Virus record (IMG/VR): IMGVR_UViG_3300044974_000745
Coordinates: 1 to 50,869 of that record
Strand: one strand, 5' to 3'
From: a virus
Length of the DNA stretch: 50,869 bases
Below are positions 2 through 25,929 of the stretch, piece after piece. The notes under the pieces are model-generated. The model had not been told where the DNA came from. It ran no database searches and saw only the letters and a list, made by a program, of their open reading frames with translations. A program made the position numbers and the translations under genes. How positions within the stretch are numbered: position 1 is the first letter of the stretch; every line of letters begins with the position of its first letter.

Positions 2-1819
2 TATACAACTAGAGATTTTCAACAAATAAGAAACGAATTAATCAATTTTACAAAGACGTATTATCCTGATTTAGTTGATAATTTTAACGACGCTTCTGTT
101 TTTTCAGCACTTTTAGATTTAAATGCTGCGGTATCAGACAACTTACAGTTTAATATTGATAGAAGTATTCAGGAGACAGTTTTACAATATGCTCAACAAA
201 AATCTTCAATTTATAATATTGCTAGAACTTACGGGTTAAAGATACCTGGACAAAGACCTTCAGTTGCTTTGGTTGATTTTTCAATCACTGTTCCGGCTTT
301 TGGAGATAAAGAAGATATTAGATATTGTGGTATTTTAAGAAGAGGTTCTCAAGTGTTAGGTGCTGGTCAAATTTTTGAAAATGTGTATGATATTGATTTT
401 GCTTCACCTGTAAATGCTGAAGGATTTCCGAACAGATTAAAAATACCAAATTTTGACGCTAATAATAAACTTTTAAATTATACTATTGTTAAAAGAGATA
501 CAGTAGTTAATGGTCAAACAAAAGTTTATAAAAAAGTTATTACATCAAATGATGTTAAACCATTTTATGAGTTATTCTTACCTGAAAAAAATGTTTTAGG
601 TGTTACAAGTGTACTTTTAAAAGACGGTACTCAATATGCCAATGTACCAAGTTCTCAAGAGTTTATAGGTCTTGATAATAGATGGTATGAAGTTAAAGCT
701 TTAGCTGAAAATAGAGTTTTTGTTGAAGACCCTACTAAGGTATCGGATAGTCCTGGTATTAAAGTTGGAAAATACATTGAAACAAGTACTAAATTTATGT
801 CAGAATTCACACCTGAAGGATTTTGTAAAATGACTTTTGGTGGTGGTAGTCAATCTGCTGATGAACAATTAAGGGAGTTTGCTAGAAATGGATACAAATT
901 GAATTTGTACAAATATTCAAATAATTTTGCTTTAGGGTCAACATTAAAGGCGAATACCACATTATTTGTTCAGTATAGAGTTGGTGGTGGAGTATCCTCA
1001 AACTTAGGTGTTAATGTTATTACTCAAATAGGGAATGTTTCATTTTATGTTAATGGACCATCGGCAAATATTAATAATGTAACAATTAATTCACTTCGTT
1101 GTACAAATGTTACAGCGGCAATAGGTGGAGCGAATAACCCAACAATAGAAGAAGTTAGAAATTTAGTATCATTTAATTTTGCTGCTCAAGACAGAGCGGT
1201 TACTGTAAATGATTATGATTCTATTATAAGAACAATGCCTTCACAGTTTGGGGCACCTGCGAAAGTTGCGATAACTGAAGATAATAATAAAATTAGAGTA
1301 AAAATGTTGTCATATGATAACAATGGTACTCTAACTGAAGTTATATCAAACACCTTAAAAAGTAATGTTGCAAATTACTTGTCTAACTATAGAATGATTA
1401 ATGATTATATCTCAATTGAAAGTGCTAACGTTATTGATTTGGCGTTAAACATTGATGTTGTTTTAAATAATAGTCAAAATCAGGGAGCGGTAATATCACA
1501 ATTAATTAGTATTGTTAGTACTTTCTTTGACTCTGGTATAAGAGACATGGGTGAGAATGTATACATCTCTGATTTGAGACGTTTAGTACAAGATGAAAAT
1601 GGTGTGATTTCCGTTTCAGATATTCAAGTGTTTAATAAAGTTGGTGGTCAATATTCATCATCTCAAACATCACAATCATACTCTGATAATACGACAAAAC
1701 AAATCCAATTGGTTGATGATACAATTTTTGCTCAACCGACACAAATTTATCAAGTAAGATTCGCAACCAAAGATATTACAATTAGAGTTAAAAATCTTAC
1801 TACAGTTAACTTTTCTTGA
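2..1819 (+). CDS. Baseplate wedge protein, T4 gp6 / baseplate J-like (5' end cut off)
   Basis: This gene enters from the left edge; the frame is open from base 2, so 605 residues are visible of a protein about the size of T4 gp6 (660). The visible N-terminus (YTTRDFQQIRNELINF, then the ALLDLNAAVSDNLQFNIDR pattern) is the helical start typical of gp6 and baseplate J-like proteins, which form the wedge ring around the tail hub. A later VNDYDSIIRTMPSQFG segment is the conserved DY motif of the same family. A TTG at 269 is not the start, because homologous coding continues upstream without a break. The family assignment comes from motif recognition and is fairly secure. The gene leads a co-directional baseplate and tail run and is followed by a 72-base gap with a hairpin and a promoter-like site. 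Confidence 0.85.
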   Translation, partial: YTTRDFQQIRNELINFTKTYYPDLVDNFNDASVFSALLDLNAAVSDNLQFNIDRSIQETVLQYAQQKSSIYNIARTYGLKIPGQRPSVALVDFSITVPAFGDKEDIRYCGILRRGSQVLGAGQIFENVYDIDFASPVNAEGFPNRLKIPNFDANNKLLNYTIVKRDTVVNGQTKVYKKVITSNDVKPFYELFLPEKNVLGVTSVLLKDGTQYANVPSSQEFIGLDNRWYEVKALAENRVFVEDPTKVSDSPGIKVGKYIETSTKFMSEFTPEGFCKMTFGGGSQSADEQLREFARNGYKLNLYKYSNNFALGSTLKANTTLFVQYRVGGGVSSNLGVNVITQIGNVSFYVNGPSANINNVTINSLRCTNVTAAIGGANNPTIEEVRNLVSFNFAAQDRAVTVNDYDSIIRTMPSQFGAPAKVAITEDNNKIRVKMLSYDNNGTLTEVISNTLKSNVANYLSNYRMINDYISIESANVIDLALNIDVVLNNSQNQGAVISQLISIVSTFFDSGIRDMGENVYISDLRRLVQDENGVISVSDIQVFNKVGGQYSSSQTSQSYSDNTTKQIQLVDDTIFAQPTQIYQVRFATKDITIRVKNLTTVNFS

Positions 1820-14800: not shown

Positions 14801-14918
14801 TTATTATTTAACAAATGAAGATACCATAATTATATATGGTACCGTGTGTGGTTTGGATTTAAATGATTTAAATTTCAAATTGAACATAGGGATAAATTTT
14901 AATATATTATGTAATTAA
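11898..14918 (+). CDS. Large baseplate protein with tail protein gpI-like segment (1006 aa)
   Basis: The middle of this protein (about residues 385-480) contains LLKNLAQTLGWNT, then YQFYKNLILNSAFLFKSKGT and RKSIEVLLRLIGAP. The KGT...SIE.LL...GAP pattern is like that of P2 gpI-type and related contractile-injection baseplate proteins, which link the wedge to tail fibers. The N-terminal 380 residues and the Cys-rich C-terminus (CQLIPIPCNPC) are not recognised and may be fiber-docking domains. It lies directly before the SprB-repeat adhesins and overlaps them (TAATG). A role as fiber-attachment baseplate protein fits, but the family link is from one motif region and is moderate. Confidence 0.65.
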   Translation: MAVNKFVCPPISATGSGSFSDDLVGFQLVQGGGLTQGNFEFTVGVTEKTNREFYTGVFSDPVNLKSMGVESVAQSKVIFENNFKVYPNYDLSEVTNFTLYGSMTKRISTSVTTIINYFPASLEMQFIGINYTTGTTASNVVFNSIENTTKFDLDLSRIRNPFGIDFTVNSTRNLSLKEVKVSPLRDMTIEYKKYSLFYLGNEFPLILLLSTTSLTSGLLTIYVKGNPFSGNTQIYSDIIVRPNDYEVNKVFNESLDDVENFILNRNSVPKYSAQFKIPQMSDGGQYSVTSTFITWPLSGRWNLDIVSSTFTTYLTKLNAISEDFDLYRTNLIARFLTTDAFKEFDTVGQKMQKVLQIYGRSFDEINKFINALAFMNSVHYNTGNDIPSQLLKNLAQTLGWNTAISPISNDNFLNSVFGSTDSGVSHFAGLPTQQTPDELNYQFYKNLILNSAFLFKSKGTRKSIEVLLRLIGAPDALVEFNEYVYLADQRINMSSFETQYAQISGGTYSQEIPILNPAEIFTIFGVPYTGTTTTTSYEDVNFAISEYPIDDEGYPSVPEPSQSYYFQIGAGWFESTPKHRSPEQINLTNAVFTGSNPNYQTSLIPFSYGQIYLNRFRYFPYTKLGFNLRETIDNNKSWTNTEIGLRTNLDAGYNSRYVTDDDRLVLNVKNTEIFLNPAQGLAYDVWYMSRQYNYPIPNQGLKYIPPTPCNPNPVSNYPIRGGVDWTEINPRPGRKTFFEFAQTFWFNMINVRNRQHISDGKTGGYPTLQSIYWKYLQSEENIGIANDNFTYQTMIQYVEGLGDYWVRLIEQLVPATTIWNTGLKYENSIFHRQKFVYRRQSGCQLIPIPCNPCSLTANIFNNDCPVESVECSKYPWMVSTTIQDFTGVLGVLLNNYLTTNGYILNDCVANSLNTEWFVDLRFNDVPVVTESFFNGIGYNTPGLSTPTTTDWDNGLVSALDSLSSLGYSYYLTNEDTIIIYGTVCGLDLNDLNFKLNIGINFNILCN

Positions 14919-17059
14919 TGTCATCTTGTGGATTATCAACAATATTAAGTATTACTGGTGATTGTCAATCAATTAGTACAGGCGCGTTTTTTTTAGAAAT
15001 CGTTGGTACTGCTCCTGATTATACCATTGTTTGGAATTACCCTTATACATCAACAATTCCTTTAGGACCCGGTGTGACAACTTATTCTCAAGATAACTTG
15101 TCATATGGGACGTATACTTTTACAGTTTACGATTCATGTTCACCATCAACTAGTTTACTTGTAAGTGTATATATTTCATCGGGAACTTGTGTTTCAATTT
15201 TAAATGAAATTAGTACAATATGTGGGTTAAACAACGGAAGTTTAACCGCTAGTACTTCAAATATTTATGGTACCCCGTCTTTTTATCTTTATGAGACAAC
15301 TAATGGATATATTTCATCAGGTAGTTCATTCACAAACGAATTTTCTTTTAATAATTTAGAATCGGGAATATATTACGTTATTGCTGATGATGGTGGGGGT
15401 TGTACAGGTAGTACTCAAAGTTGTGTTATAAAAAGTTCAACAACTGTAAGTTTTGGATTATATGTTGTTAACGATTCGGCATGTACACCAAATCACGGTA
15501 AAATTTATGTTACAGGTTTAACAGGTAATCCACCATTTACTTATTTATGGTCTAACGGTGAAACAACAAATTTCACTTCAGGTTTAACTGCAGGGTCTTA
15601 TTCTGTAACCATAACTGATGGTACAGGATGTTCTCAAGGGGTTGGAGCTGTAGTTGGTTTAGTTCCTTCATTAGGATTGGGTTCAGTGATGTCAGTAAGT
15701 CCTACTTGTTTTAACTCCGATGGCGAACTTACAGTGACTATAACAGGAGGTACTTCACCATATTATTTTTCAGGGTCTAATGGTGATAGTTCAATAACAT
15801 TTAGCAATTCATATTCATTCACTAATTTAAGTGGTGGTTATTTTAATGTTTATGTTGTTGATGCTGGTTTATGTAGTTTAAACGTAAGTACATCAATTTT
15901 AACACCGGGTGGGTTTAGTTTAGTTTCTTTAACTACCGGAGATTCTCTTTGTGGTAATAATATTGGTCGTATTGATATTACATTACTTGGAGGTTCACCA
16001 CCGTATGTTTATTCAATTACAGGTACGTCAGGAAATGTGACAAGTATTAGTTCATCAAGTCCTAATTATAGTTTTACAAATTTATCTGCGGACATATATA
16101 ATTTACAAATTTCGGATAATGGACCTTGTGTTTATTATGATACAATAACTATTAATTCAGTTAATAGCTTTGACTTATCATTTAATGTTACAGGGGCAAC
16201 CTGTGGGTTAGATAATGGTTCAGTAGAGGTGTCTTTAAATGGTGGAACTGGACCATATACATATGGTATTAATGGTTCATCTGTTGTAACATCTCAAAGT
16301 GCTGTTACGTTTAATAATTTATATTATGGAACATATTTAGCAACTGTTACCGATAATACAGGTTGTACTATTAATGAATGGGTTGTGGTGACAAACACTT
16401 CAAACATGGATTTTATAGTTTCAAGTGTTAATCCTACATCAGGTAATGATGGCTCAATATCTGTTTTTATTACAGAAGGTACTCCATTATTTAATGTCGT
16501 TTGGAGTAATAATGTTAATGGGCAAACTGGATTGACTGTTAATAACTTAACTGGTGGTACATATACTGTAACAATAACTGATAGTTATGGATGTATATTA
16601 TCAAGAACTATAGATTTGGTAGGTTATAATACGTTAACTTCTTACGAGGTATTCAACATCTGCGATTCCGTGTTTAATGATGAGGGGGTCAATACCAAGA
16701 AAGGTCCACTACAAATGTTAAACGAAGGTTTTTATGATTTAACAACTGGTGATACTATATGTGTTTTAAATTCTGCAATTTTTATTGCGCAAGTAAACGT
16801 AAGTGGTGTTACAACTGAACAATCTTTCTATACAGGTTATACTTTGAATGACTATCCTGCTGATAATCAATTTTATGATGTTGTAGAAACGTTGATTGAA
16901 AATATTCCTGGAATTGATAATGTTATTACTGACCCTATAAATAATTTAATTACAATAAACGCTGGATGTACTGACCAAACTGTGAATTTTGCAGATGTTT
17001 CTGTAATAATTACATTAAAAATTGATTATGATATTTCTTGTGTTGAATGTGCACCTTAA
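14918..17059 (+). CDS. SprB-repeat adhesin-like tail protein (713 aa)
   Basis: The protein is built from about seven beta repeats of 60-75 residues (roughly 10-85, 98-170, 182-240, 257-322, 335-408, 422-485 and 500-565). The best copies follow the SprB repeat pattern: Cys, then NDG or NNGS, then V.ITGGT.PY.Y.WSNG, then GL.AGTY.VTITD..GC. SprB repeats are a hallmark of Flavobacterium gliding adhesins and related Bacteroidetes surface proteins. The last ~145 residues form a different domain containing a TKKGPLQMLNEGFYDL segment and further Cys. Overlap with the previous gene (TAATG) and a 12-base gap to the next SprB-type gene tie it to the tail operon. It is most likely a receptor-binding or side fiber, acting on the host surface (inference). 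Confidence 0.8.
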   Translation: MSSCGLSTILSITGDCQSISTGAFFLEIVGTAPDYTIVWNYPYTSTIPLGPGVTTYSQDNLSYGTYTFTVYDSCSPSTSLLVSVYISSGTCVSILNEISTICGLNNGSLTASTSNIYGTPSFYLYETTNGYISSGSSFTNEFSFNNLESGIYYVIADDGGGCTGSTQSCVIKSSTTVSFGLYVVNDSACTPNHGKIYVTGLTGNPPFTYLWSNGETTNFTSGLTAGSYSVTITDGTGCSQGVGAVVGLVPSLGLGSVMSVSPTCFNSDGELTVTITGGTSPYYFSGSNGDSSITFSNSYSFTNLSGGYFNVYVVDAGLCSLNVSTSILTPGGFSLVSLTTGDSLCGNNIGRIDITLLGGSPPYVYSITGTSGNVTSISSSSPNYSFTNLSADIYNLQISDNGPCVYYDTITINSVNSFDLSFNVTGATCGLDNGSVEVSLNGGTGPYTYGINGSSVVTSQSAVTFNNLYYGTYLATVTDNTGCTINEWVVVTNTSNMDFIVSSVNPTSGNDGSISVFITEGTPLFNVVWSNNVNGQTGLTVNNLTGGTYTVTITDSYGCILSRTIDLVGYNTLTSYEVFNICDSVFNDEGVNTKKGPLQMLNEGFYDLTTGDTICVLNSAIFIAQVNVSGVTTEQSFYTGYTLNDYPADNQFYDVVETLIENIPGIDNVITDPINNLITINAGCTDQTVNFADVSVIITLKIDYDISCVECAP

Positions 17060-17071
17060 AATTTAGGAAAA

Positions 17072-18439
17072 ATGATATTAAAAAATGAACCAACATCTTA
17101 TTTGACGGCGAACACGGAATGTGGAGTTGTTTATTCATTTCAGAATGAATGTGAACCTATTACTATATACCCATTGGGTGCTGAGTGTTTTGTTACTGAT
17201 GTTAATAAAATAGGTAATCATGATGGTTCTATTTATATAAATGTAACAGGAGGTACACCTCCTTATTTTATTGTATGGAATAATGGTAATTATGGTCCAT
17301 ATATTAATAATTTAGGTGTTGGTACATATACTGCGGTTATTGTTGATTATTACGGAGATTTTTCAAGTACAACAACTTGTACTGTTTTACAACCAACATT
17401 ACCACCGTCACCAACTCCAACACCCACACCGTCACCTTTACCAAACACTATTGATTTTTGTTTACAATTAAAATTAAAAAATTGTACTATCACTAACTTA
17501 CATTTTAATCCAAATGGTTCTTTTAATGGACAATTCGCTTGGATTGATGATTCATCAGTTTATTCAATTTATTGGGACGGAACTAAATGGGTGTTAGATT
17601 CATGGACTTGTTATACTGTAATAAATAATAACCCATCATCACCACCAATTACAGGATGGTCAATTTTGGGAACTACAGGTTCTGTTACGGGGTATTTAGG
17701 TTCTTGTGCGTCAATATCATCACTTAAAATGACCATAACGACAAATGACCCTGTTAAAGGTTCTGATGGTAATATAGTAATAACTGCAAGTGATGGAACT
17801 TCACCATATCTATACTCAATTGATGGTGGTACATCTTATCATTCTTCACCAATCTTTAAAGGTTTAAAATCAGGAATTTATGCTGTTCAAACACAAGATT
17901 TTGTTAGTGATATTGTTTACGATTCCATAACATTGAAAACTCCACCACCATCAAAAACATATTCAGTTTCTTTAAATACTGTATCAAGAATTTTATCTTA
18001 TACATTAACAACATACTCTGTTGAATACACAACAACAATTAATGTGTACCCAACTTTACCAAGTGGTGTGACAATTAATTTTGATTTGGCACACACTAAT
18101 GATTCTGAAGTTTCACCTTCACTTACATCGTCAACAATCTCAACAAGTAGTGTTTTAACTAAAAACATGGTAATTGTTCCACAAACAACAACTGTAACAA
18201 CAGGTGAGACGGTAAATACTTTAGTTTTATGTGGGTCTCAAACAGTTTATTTAACTTCTGAAACTGATTTATGGAATTTACAAACTTTAAATAATACTGA
18301 TAGTTTATATATTACTACAACTACAACTAAAATAAGGAATACTAATGACATATGTTATGTTTCTAATTCAAATGATACTTACTCTATTTATAATGTTACG
18401 ATATTAGGATGTAGTCCATGTAATGTGATTGTTAATTAA
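17072..18439 (+). CDS. SprB-like adhesin with Pro/Thr linker (455 aa)
   Basis: Residues about 45-105 are an SprB-like repeat (NHDGSIYINVTGGTPPYFIV, then NNLGVGTYTAVIVD). A linker at about 109-125 (SPTPTPTPSPLP) joins it to a middle domain with Trp-rich segments. A second, weaker SprB-like repeat follows (about 225-285, KGSDGNIVITASDGTSPYLY). The C-terminal ~165 residues are Thr/Ser-rich and beta-prone and end in a CSPC pair. It probably forms a tail fiber with the preceding SprB-repeat protein. No signal peptide is present, as expected for a virion protein. Alternative: a decoration protein. Confidence 0.7.
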   Translation: MILKNEPTSYLTANTECGVVYSFQNECEPITIYPLGAECFVTDVNKIGNHDGSIYINVTGGTPPYFIVWNNGNYGPYINNLGVGTYTAVIVDYYGDFSSTTTCTVLQPTLPPSPTPTPTPSPLPNTIDFCLQLKLKNCTITNLHFNPNGSFNGQFAWIDDSSVYSIYWDGTKWVLDSWTCYTVINNNPSSPPITGWSILGTTGSVTGYLGSCASISSLKMTITTNDPVKGSDGNIVITASDGTSPYLYSIDGGTSYHSSPIFKGLKSGIYAVQTQDFVSDIVYDSITLKTPPPSKTYSVSLNTVSRILSYTLTTYSVEYTTTINVYPTLPSGVTINFDLAHTNDSEVSPSLTSSTISTSSVLTKNMVIVPQTTTVTTGETVNTLVLCGSQTVYLTSETDLWNLQTLNNTDSLYITTTTTKIRNTNDICYVSNSNDTYSIYNVTILGCSPCNVIVN

Positions 18440-21592: not shown

Positions 21593-23518
21593 TTATGGTT
21601 TTACCGTAATATTCCAATTGTATGGAGAATTTTTAAGTAATAAATAATATGGGTTAGTTAAACCTCCTGTCGGTGATTCAGGTTGTGGGAATGTAGTTCC
21701 TGTAAACAATAAAGTTTTATTGTACAAAGTATTTGCCGTTGCAATAGTTGCAACATCTTGTAAAATATAATCTACTGCCGCGGTTTTAAGGCTAGTACCT
21801 CTAAAATCTAATGATAACATATTAGTCATTGCTGAGAATGTTGATGTCCAACCTGTTAATGTTTGGCTACCTGTGGAAGTAAATGTTTTTAAAGTTGATG
21901 GGAAGTTACCTTGTATTATTTGTGGACTATTTATGAAATTATTACTACTAATATTTAAAGTTACAAGAGAAGTATGTCCCGAAAGATTTGTTGTTCCAGT
22001 TAATTCGTTGAAGAATAAATCTATTGATGTTGCTCCTTGAGTATAATTAAAGTCAAAATTCTGTAAAAGATTACCTTTAAAACTTATTGTTTTAATTGAT
22101 GGTGGGAATTGTGTTGTCCATCCTGATAAACTGACACTATCTAATCTGAAAGTTTGTAATGACGTTGCTCCCGTTAAATCTACTGACCATTGTGGTACAT
22201 ACTGTAAAGGACCACCGTCACTCATATTAAAAGTAACACAACTTGTTGGGAAGTTACTTGTATAACCTGTTATGTCATTTAAATTCAACAATAATGTTTG
22301 GATACTATTTGGGAATATTGGTGGTAATGTCGTTAAGTTGTTATTATCTAATCTTAATTCTATCAATGATGTACAAGCCGATATAGTATTTGTAAATGAA
22401 CTTAAAACTATATTACTATTTAAATCTAAATTAGTTAAATTTGTATTTAATGATAAATCAATGTCAAAATTACGGATTCTGTTACCTCCAAGTTCTGCAA
22501 TTTCCGCAGATACTGGTAATGTATAGGTCCAACCTGATAATGATGTATTACCATTTACAAGTATATTTTTAAGACCCGTACAATCTGATAAATTATTAGG
22601 TATATTAATTATTGGTAATGATGTATTAAGTACAATGAATATTTGATTGAATGTTGAGCCAGTTGGTACCGTTACATTTAAGTTAGTTAAACTATTATTG
22701 TTTGCTAAACTTAAAGTTCTAAATGAACTACTTCCTGAAAAATTGTAGGTAAGCCCTGACATATCAGTATTCCAAATTAACAATTGTTTAAAACTTGGTA
22801 GTAATGCTAGATTTGTTGTCGGATTAAATTGGAAATTTTGAGGTCCTGGAGAATTTGCACCGTAGATATAGAAAAAAATAAGTGAGTTTGGTAAACTAGA
22901 ACTAAAATCATTTAGAGTTGTAGCTGATAACCAAATTTGAGTCGCGGCAGTAAACGCACTAAAAGTATAACTATTCTCAATTATATCTGATATGTTATGT
23001 AATTTAATTTCTCTAATATAGTCGGTTGAAAGAGAAGATGATACTTGAAAATCTTCACATGTTGCAGTATATACACTTGAACCATACGTATGATTATATG
23101 AATAAAATACAAATCCTGGCGGAAATGGAGGATTTGTAATGTTAACTGGTAATGTTGAAGTGTCACCCCAATCAATATTAAAACTACTATTAGATGAGGT
23201 TCTAAAAATAACTGATAATGGATTAGTACCTAAAATATTTGATACTTGGAAAAACGGTGGTATAAACGGTATAGGTGTTGGAGTTGGTGTTACATAACAG
23301 TTGTAAATTTCAAATCTCTCACATCCATCACTTGTTATTATTTTAATACCAATTGCTGGTATAATATCAAATGGTGGAGGTAACACAAAAGTGAATGTTG
23401 GTGGTACTGTTGAAACCACTGTAGATAAAACTGTACAATTGTTACCTAAAACATCACAAACATAAACTGTGTATGGTAAGTTTAATCCTGATATTGAATT
23501 TAATGTTATCGTTTGCAT
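21593..23518 (-). CDS. Leucine-rich-repeat / PKD-like tail adhesin (641 aa)
   Basis: Domains in order: an N-terminal module (about 1-75, ITLNSISG...YVCD...SDGCE) homologous to the separate 71-residue protein upstream; a short TPTPTP linker (78-83); a PKD-like domain (about 90-160, FNIDWGDTSTLPVN and YSYNHTYG); and a long array of irregular leucine-rich repeats (about 170-570, for example LIELRLDNNNLTTLP and SLVTLNISSNNF). The final 70 residues end in LLLKNSPYNWNITVKP. Leucine-rich repeats form a curved protein-binding surface, so receptor or host-surface binding is likely. It is the last gene of a three-gene minus-strand cassette, overlapping the 803-residue gene by one base. No signal peptide is seen, consistent with a virion component. 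Confidence 0.75.
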   Translation of the reverse strand: MQTITLNSISGLNLPYTVYVCDVLGNNCTVLSTVVSTVPPTFTFVLPPPFDIIPAIGIKIITSDGCERFEIYNCYVTPTPTPIPFIPPFFQVSNILGTNPLSVIFRTSSNSSFNIDWGDTSTLPVNITNPPFPPGFVFYSYNHTYGSSVYTATCEDFQVSSSLSTDYIREIKLHNISDIIENSYTFSAFTAATQIWLSATTLNDFSSSLPNSLIFFYIYGANSPGPQNFQFNPTTNLALLPSFKQLLIWNTDMSGLTYNFSGSSSFRTLSLANNNSLTNLNVTVPTGSTFNQIFIVLNTSLPIINIPNNLSDCTGLKNILVNGNTSLSGWTYTLPVSAEIAELGGNRIRNFDIDLSLNTNLTNLDLNSNIVLSSFTNTISACTSLIELRLDNNNLTTLPPIFPNSIQTLLLNLNDITGYTSNFPTSCVTFNMSDGGPLQYVPQWSVDLTGATSLQTFRLDSVSLSGWTTQFPPSIKTISFKGNLLQNFDFNYTQGATSIDLFFNELTGTTNLSGHTSLVTLNISSNNFINSPQIIQGNFPSTLKTFTSTGSQTLTGWTSTFSAMTNMLSLDFRGTSLKTAAVDYILQDVATIATANTLYNKTLLFTGTTFPQPESPTGGLTNPYYLLLKNSPYNWNITVKP

Positions 23519-25929
23519 TATGAAAAATTAGTAGGTATACAGAATGGACCTGATGGTAATTTTGCTTGAGACGCTCCAAAACTAGCACCTAATGGACCGA
23601 ATGGACCAACCATTGATGATTGTGGTAACAAGGCGTAAGGTGAAGTATTACCCATTTTGTAAACCGAGTTATCATTAGTAACTAAATAAATCCTTGAGGA
23701 TTGTTCGAAAATACCTGTTAAAGTTTTACCTGGCATTCCTGAAGTAACATTTATATCAAATTCAAGAACACCCGCACTACTGTATTGTAATACCCTTTGA
23801 GTTGGTGATGGACTTGGAGTTCCTACTAATACAATAATTTTACCACTTGTATCTGTAACCATTAAATCTTTATTTGCTAAATAACCTGCTGGTAATGTTG
23901 TAATATTTGTAACACTCGCAGTTGTTGACGTAATGTTTAAAGATACAATTTTATTTGGACTAACTCCAGTGTTTGTACTATATAAAATTGTATTAGAAAC
24001 TGAAAAAAGTGAACCTAAAAGAACTGGAGAAGTAATAATTCTATTCAGTACAATAGTACCGGGGCAAAGAGTTAGGTCATATTCTTCAATTGTTACATTA
24101 TCACTTCTTAACATCCATAATTTATCTGTTGAATTTGCGATATCGCTATATAAAAATGAAAAATTGGAAAACAATGTTAATGTATTGGATGATTTTAAAT
24201 AAGTATAAACGCTAAATCCTGAACCTCCTGCACTTGTACCTCTAAATGCGACAAATGTTGAACAATCGTCTAAACATGGGGGGGTTGATGTTGGTGTAGG
24301 TGTTAATGTATTAGTAACTGTTGGAGTTAAAGTATTTGTCGGAGTTACGGTGTTTGTTGGTGTAACTGTCGGTGTTGCAGTTATTGTTGGGGTAGTTGTC
24401 GGTGTTATAGTTTTTGTCGGAGTTATAGTAGGTGTAGTTGTAGGTGTTGCAGTTATTGTTGGAGTTATTGTAGTAGTTGGGGTTATTGTTGGTGTAACAG
24501 TAGGACTTAATGAAATTGTCGGAGTTATAGTAGGTGTGGTTGTAGGTGTATTAGTCGGAGTTTCGGTAGGAGTTATTGTAGGTGTAGGGGTATTTGTCGG
24601 AGTTGGTGTTGGATTTTCAGTACTAGTTGGAGTCGGGGTATTAGTATTAGTTGGAGTAACTGTTTGGGTATTAGTAGGAGTTACAGTTGGTGTCTCAGTC
24701 GGAGTTAATGAAATTGTAGGAGTATTTGTCGGAGTTAATGAAATTGTAGGAGTAACAGTTGGTGTAGGTGTAGGTGTTTGACTGGCGATAACATTGTTAT
24801 TACAATCAATACAACCATTATAAACAAGTCCTGTTGTATTTGTGAAATAATTTCCTGCAAAATATGTTACAGTATCAAATGGTGATAAACTTGGATATGA
24901 AACAGTTTGAGATATATATTCCCAACATGAGTTTGTGTTTAAATCAACTAAACATTGACCAATAAGTGGTAAAAATGATGGTAATGTCTGTACAACATAT
25001 TGATTTAAACTATCACAGTTTTTAAATAAATAATATGCTAATGGTAAACTTGTTGTTGGTGTAGGTGTTAATGTAGGAGTTTGTGTTAATGTAGGTGTTA
25101 ATGTGGGTGTTTGAGTTAATTGCGGTAGACATAAAGAACATTCTCCTAAATTAGAATACCCCAGAGGACCGTCAATTAAAACAATATTATTAACACCAAT
25201 AGTTTGGGTTGTATTACCAACATAACTAATACAACTAGATACACCATCAACAGTTGATTCAAAAATCATAAATTGAGTTAATGTATCACCTGACGGGGTA
25301 TTAACTTCACTTGTGGTATAATAGAATTCTCCCGAATAACAATCTTGGAATTTTTTACTACCAGGACATTGTATAATTGAATTAACAGTTATAAAACTAA
25401 CATCACCTGAAAAATTACAATAATAAGTTATAACTGGCGAAGCTGTTGGTGTCGGTGTTAGTGTTGAAGTCGCACTTGGGGTTATACCCGTAATTGTAAC
25501 ATTAATACCAATTGATGGACAATAATTTGTTACCGATGGTGTTGGTGTTAATGTTGGACTTGGAGTTTCTGTTGGGGTGTTAGTTGGTGACGGAGAAACT
25601 TCACAATCAAAAATTGCGGTAAAATCTAAGACCGTACAATTAACTGTTGGTGTTGGAGTCGGTGTTACGCATACTCCTGCTGAAAAATATGTATCACAGA
25701 TGTCAGGACAACTTGAGATACAAGGACTAGCCCCAAATAGTATACAACTACCACCTAAAGAAGATGAAACACACCAATATTCACTTGTTCCTGTAACATA
25801 GTAAATGTAATATCCGTAAGTTGAACCTAACCAGTAGTCATAACTATTATATACTCCTGATAAAGTATAGTTATCATCAACATTGGGTATTTCGGTATTT
25901 GAAATACAATAAAAATTACTACAAGGCAT
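23518..25929 (-). CDS. Thr/Pro-repeat adhesin with propeller-like C-terminus (803 aa)
   Basis: Three Cys-rich beta modules (about residues 1-88, 165-270 and 297-377, each with CxxC-type pairs) are joined by Thr/Pro linkers. They are followed by a Thr/Pro-dominated tract of about 165 residues (385-552) made of TPTxTPT units. The C-terminal ~250 residues (553-803) hold repeating strands of the kind seen in beta-propellers ([17 protein letters not shown], then [26 protein letters not shown] and [14 protein letters not shown]). The Thr/Pro tract probably acts as a stiff, extended stalk that could carry O-linked sugars. The gene is in the middle of the minus-strand cassette: one base separates it from the upstream small gene and it overlaps the LRR gene by one base. 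A receptor-binding fiber is likely, by architecture and context. Confidence 0.7.
24275..24781 (-). repeat. Low-complexity Thr/Pro-coding tract
   Basis: About 500 bases encode near-continuous Thr-Pro-X repeats, seen on the + strand as degenerate GGTGTAGTT-like units of 6 to 12 bases. The units vary in sequence and in spacer residue, so this is a diverged array that could still change length by slippage. On the opposite strand the same tract reads as an open Gly/Val repeat, which I regard as an artefact. Confidence 0.75.

Follow-up and report, generated by a model that had tools for sequence, protein, structure and literature searches.

A tail-operon protein of large uncultured phages carries seven SprB-family repeats and is a likely contractile-tail arm with exchangeable tips

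We describe a phage protein of 713 residues (P713), made of seven SprB-type Ig-like repeats and a C-terminal alpha/beta domain, which is likely to be an arm of a contractile tail: a rod of seven SprB repeats with a docking domain and with tips, borne on the rod or by its partner P455, that serve adsorption. Sequence family, repeat number, synteny, a common C-terminal domain, tip exchange and predicted fold are direct results of the analysis; presence in the virion, docking, binding and the direction of gene transfer are inferred. In our model, seven SprB-family Ig-like domains would form a rod of fixed length on the contractile-tail apparatus of large phages, the C-terminal alpha/beta domain of P713, of a kind also found in the neighbouring protein P1006, would dock or assemble this rod, and the rod or P455 would present exchangeable tips to the host surface, letting the phage adsorb to, or transiently grip, the cell. 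The repeat family, which is common with the host lineage, would most simply have been taken from a Bacteroidota surface protein, and the P713 array would have lost secretion signals and settled at seven units ahead of the radiation of the group. Two UniProt entries from uncultured Caudovirales phage, A0A6J5LD72 and A0A6J5LDA4, are named 'SprB repeat', and the former (714 aa in BFVD; E 1e-65, 34% identity) is an evident homologue of P713 whose label exists only in the database; no paper describing SprB repeats in phage proteins was found in the literature searched. New here are the P1006-P713 synteny, the constant seven repeats, their positional orthology, the P1006-type C-terminal domain and the tips.

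The window, the whole stretch of 50,869 nucleotides that we analysed (IMG/VR record IMGVR_UViG_3300044974_000745), comes from an uncultured virus and covers part of its genome. Positions 14918-18439 hold exactly two adjacent complete open reading frames (ORFs), P713 (14918..17059) and then P455 (17072..18439; 455 aa), both on the plus strand, and the start of P713 overlaps by 1 base the upstream 1006-aa ORF, P1006 (11898..14918, plus strand), a conserved baseplate-operon protein. We built an HMM on the window repeats and iterated it on orthologues; with it, P713 shows seven repeats (residues 10-565, each at E 1e-13 or better), at 14942..15169, 15197..15427, 15458..15655, 15683..15898, 15926..16153, 16178..16390 and 16415..16618, the third being the closest of them to bacterial SprB repeats; the C-terminal domain, our candidate for docking, follows at 16619..17056. 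The same HMM finds two repeats in P455, for a total of nine, with SprB-type matches at 17210-17290 and 17759-17833. P455 also has a Pro-Thr linker at about 17399-17437, its further domains fit no known family, and its length among relatives ranges from 341 to 1133 aa. Against Pfam PF13573 (SprB; curated cut-off 28 bits), P713 scores 49.5 bits (E 3e-13) and P455 44.6 bits (E 1e-11), and SprB is the sole Pfam family above its curated cut-off in either protein. A DNA-level search gave signal from six single repeats in the window and from none of 14 control genomes. The original prediction of about nine SprB-type repeats in two adjacent genes of a baseplate/tail operon thus stands: the profile search places both proteins over the cut-off, and the operon assignment is backed by a gp6-like baseplate wedge protein at 2..1819 (plus strand, open at the contig end; phrog_219, E 4.5e-22) and by the nearby fibre-like P801.

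P1006 has relatives in 157 stretches of viral contigs, on contigs of up to 322 kb, and in all 89 distinct P1006 loci with enough downstream sequence a P713 homologue follows directly, with an identical 1-base overlap in 72. Seven is the exact repeat count in 71 of the 72 distinct orthologues of P713, and the repeats hardly shift in position; aligned orthologues are 37-77% identical to P713 of the window. When a repeat is compared with those of other phages, its closest counterpart occupies the same place in the array 494 times out of 497; repeats within one P713 average only 27% identity to each other. The repeats also hold many invariant glycines and cysteines. Bacterial arrays in the fetched loci, by comparison, reach 38 repeats per ORF, with a median within-protein identity of 42%. 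Constant repeat number, positional orthology and low internal identity together indicate that the P713 array is an old, fixed one, in contrast to the bacterial arrays sampled. Such a rod would presumably be rigid and have a defined polarity on the virion. Near-DNA search of phage records gave no match. Compared with the near relative L008, P1006 and P801 are 96% and 94% identical whereas P713 is 77% identical, with the lowest value, 51%, in repeat 1. Elsewhere in the baseplate operon, P1749 and P606 (1892-8964) share only 53% and 65% identity with their counterparts in L008, in contrast to 96-98% for P302 and P1006, a case of strong local divergence.

The stretch 568-711 of P713 shows homology to the C-terminal 159 residues of P1006 (hhalign probability 95%, E 3e-8), and the order of helices and strands in the two C-terminal domains is the same in both AlphaFold2 (AF2) models. 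The bacterial ORFs of the fetched loci gave no match to this domain, which probably docks or assembles P713. Beyond it, 44 of 72 P713 orthologues carry a C-terminal extension longer than 60 aa, 31 of these with a Pro-Thr-rich linker, and the extensions terminate in tips that fall into nine unrelated clusters. Different tips sit on similar cores, as in the pairs L017/L019 (82% identical) and L013/L014 (72% identical). The orthologues in L033, L082 and L103 were left out of the count of tip loss since their ORFs run to contig ends. P713 of the window has no tip extension, so that tips would here be presented by P455 or not at all; P455, which has a linker too, is a candidate tip carrier. As for P1006 itself, it is a distant relative of gp109 of Flavobacterium phage immuto (1265 aa) and of a 1336-aa protein of Microcystis phage Mel-JY01, encoded downstream of the wedge gene. 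Naming P1006 from its fold was abandoned, since the AF2 model is poor (mean pLDDT 56) and Foldseek and PDB matches were not significant. Searching phage isolates with P1006 by tblastn gave no match, and P1006 is absent from 395 Bacteroidota genomes, which therefore offer no prophage or host link.

Downstream of P455 lies P801 (18469..20874, plus strand), a fibre-like protein with Pro-Thr linkers and profile matches to tail-fibre-region proteins of immuto and Mel-JY01. M803 (23518-25929, minus strand) has phrog_15511 and Pro-Thr linkers in common with P801, which suggests a second, minus-strand fibre-like protein. Next to it, M641 (21593-23518, minus strand) matches leucine-rich-repeat protein models weakly, far below the cut-off, and is possibly a leucine-rich-repeat phage protein encoded next to the tail operon on the opposite strand. 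In several relatives (L016, L025, L031, L032, L036, L043 and others) the block of P200 and P801, and P455, is inverted with respect to P713, so this fibre block appears to act as a movable module. The collections searched held no isolate or virion proteome of the group, and the virion location of P713 is accordingly read from synteny.

The AF2 model of P713 (mean pLDDT 83) shows seven consecutive beta-sandwich domains followed by the alpha/beta domain. Its top Foldseek matches are fragments of GhpA (E 5e-21), the grappling-hook protein of Aureispira sp. CCB-QB1, followed by strings of Ig and FN3 domains; GhpA, which also matches the repeat profile (2.5e-4, with RemZ at 0.002), is bacterial and its PDB sequence has 5,898 residues, as against 713 in the phage protein. 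In PDB, the repeat profile also reaches the decoration protein 5lxk of a phage (E 9e-6) and the neck whiskers protein gp24 (9occ, 7e-5), and tblastn finds whisker/hoc proteins of Klebsiella and Enterobacter phages at 34-36%. These similarities raise the possibility that P713 instead decorates the capsid or neck as a string of Ig-like domains, like Hoc, pb10 or whiskers, and acts in dispersal or in loose surface contact. In support of this, T4 Hoc is likewise a string of Ig-like domains with a conserved C-terminal virion-binding domain (PMC10385173), and a conserved non-Ig end domain is found in 5lxk and 9occ as well, all three having weak sequence similarity to the P713 repeats. P713 differs from them, however, in having seven SprB-type domains, an invariant position in the baseplate operon, usually with the 1-base overlap with P1006, a C-terminal domain common with P1006, and swappable tips. 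Each of these last three features argues against decoration of the head or neck, which we consider unlikely. On the best reading, P713 would be an Ig-like arm belonging to the tail, comparable to T4 Hoc and T5 pb10.

Where the repeats came from is suggested by their nearest relatives, which sit in Bacteroidota proteins at up to 58% identity over 50-60 aa. A pattern search of bacterial genomes returned at least 570 related stretches, and the best 79 loci are almost all from named Bacteroidota. When matches at the same array position are set aside, five of the seven window repeats have a bacterial repeat, and not one from another phage, as their top match, which fits descent of the P713 array from a multi-repeat protein of Bacteroidota. 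Of the original proposal that the phage took a host surface module for binding, the SprB family, the Bacteroidota kinship and the tail-operon genes all held; since both proteins are encoded in the tail operon, use of a host-surface-type module in the virion is reasonable, and transfer would most simply have run from host to phage.

The companion proposal, that P713 and P455 engage the gliding machinery or the type IX secretion system (T9SS) by mimicry, fared poorly. The likely hosts carry T9SS, the repeats truly belong to the SprB family, and the receptors of flavobacterial phages are thought to be part of the gliding machinery (PMC7345892), so that mimicry stays a testable question. SprB repeats are nonetheless general surface domains of Bacteroidota and not a mark of gliding, given that they number from tens to hundreds per genome across the phylum, occur in the grappling hook GhpA, and are found beside TANFOR toxins (PMC7073777), among very many other settings. 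Moreover, according to Kulkarni et al. 2019, as cited in PMC7073777, it is the C-terminal region of SprB, not the repeats, that directs secretion and propulsion. No T9SS C-terminal domain (CTD; PF18962, PF13585 and NCBIfam CTD models) gave an accepted match in the window, P713 or P455, and the N-termini of the two proteins, MSSCGLSTILSITGD and MILKNEPTSYLTANT, read directly, have no signal-peptide pattern. In both respects they differ from bacterial SprB proteins such as that of Flavobacterium johnsoniae, as they do in repeat number (7 and 2, as opposed to up to 38 in one ORF) and in having repeats that are positionally fixed and more diverged (27% compared with the median of 42% within a protein). 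The phage repeats are also poor against the family consensus, scoring at most 36 bits each in the window where bacterial repeats reach 65. With neither sorting signal, a low and fixed repeat number and a family that is not specific to gliding, binding of the virion to the gliding conveyor or T9SS through its SprB-like repeats is very unlikely. Most likely, P713 works as a phage Ig-like appendage and not as a gliding adhesin, and the SprB rod looks like a borrowed structural module with swappable tips rather than a copy of the gliding machinery.

The link to T9SS runs only via other genes of some relatives. The search for CHU_C covered 29 distinct viral records with relatives and gave it in 3 of them, and not in the window fragment. 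Three large phage contigs (G006, G428 and G008, at L322, L323 and L325) carry a recurrent cassette that encodes short proteins whose starts resemble signal peptides; it includes a PKD-like member, and its last member has a T9SS type B sorting domain. In G008 the cassette adjoins genes for thymidylate synthase and a T4-type RNA ligase, and a further T9SS type B protein of 604 aa, encoded beside the ligase gene, scores 60 bits for Pfam CHU_C; with the NCBIfam model its 33.2 bits fall slightly short of the cut-off (35). G006 also encodes a protein of 1855 aa (L324:3425-8992) whose start resembles a signal peptide; it matches PKD_6 seven times and SprB four times and has a T9SS type A sorting domain. 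The 642-kb phage LR756502.1 encodes, next to SpoVR and glutamate synthase-like genes, a protein of 1670 aa (L156:9730-14742) with a signal-peptide-like start, 13 SprB repeats, PKD and a type B CHU_C domain. Phage-encoded T9SS cargo has already been described in Cryophage (PMC7468147), which has sorting-domain proteins as do some relatives of the window phage; the Cryophage cargo consists of enzymes with type A CTDs, whereas the relatives here encode small Ig/PKD proteins with type B domains and a single protein that combines SprB repeats with a type A CTD. It is conceivable, if rather improbable, that the fixed tail rod and the T9SS-exported SprB/PKD proteins of some members represent the same repeat family used twice to engage the same partners. 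If so, virions and infected cells could engage the same surface partners, for example in attachment to kin cells or a block to superinfection. These exported proteins could also be taken to mean that P713 and P455 themselves are displayed on the host surface during infection, in superinfection exclusion or adhesion, instead of being virion parts; given their N-termini without signal-peptide-like features, the missing CTD and the place of P713 inside the tail operon at every locus, this is highly improbable.

Least probable of all is that Ig-like domains, which are frequent in phages, converged on the SprB pattern: although single repeats give weak Pfam matches to other Ig families, SprB matches 27 of the 42 repeats scanned singly (best E 5e-10), the runner-up family by member count matches 7 (best E 0.0035), no family other than SprB gives an E better than 3e-4, and the closest Bacteroidota repeats are as similar as described above. 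The repeats are therefore closer to SprB than to generic Ig-like families, in keeping with their original identification as SprB-type.

The phage group very probably infects Bacteroidota, since its gene starts are poor in Shine-Dalgarno-like motifs and relatives encode proteins with T9SS signals. Such motifs precede 11% of window genes, compared with 3% in Flavobacterium phage immuto, 45% in a Microcystis phage and 100% in a Klebsiella phage (eight genes). Bacteroidota-type -33/-7 promoter motifs were set aside as host evidence, as their enrichment is only mild (10 compared with 4.3 expected; 2 of 100 shuffles as high).

Altogether, this analysis would extend the range of Ig-like domains known from phage virions by a repeat family of the Bacteroidota type. 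It also guards against a tempting misreading, as SprB repeats in a phage do not alone imply gliding. For abundant uncultured large phages, P713 offers a conserved and testable tail arm, and its fixed seven-unit rod with exchangeable tips is a candidate for an adsorption module, which might be linked to hosts through its tips.
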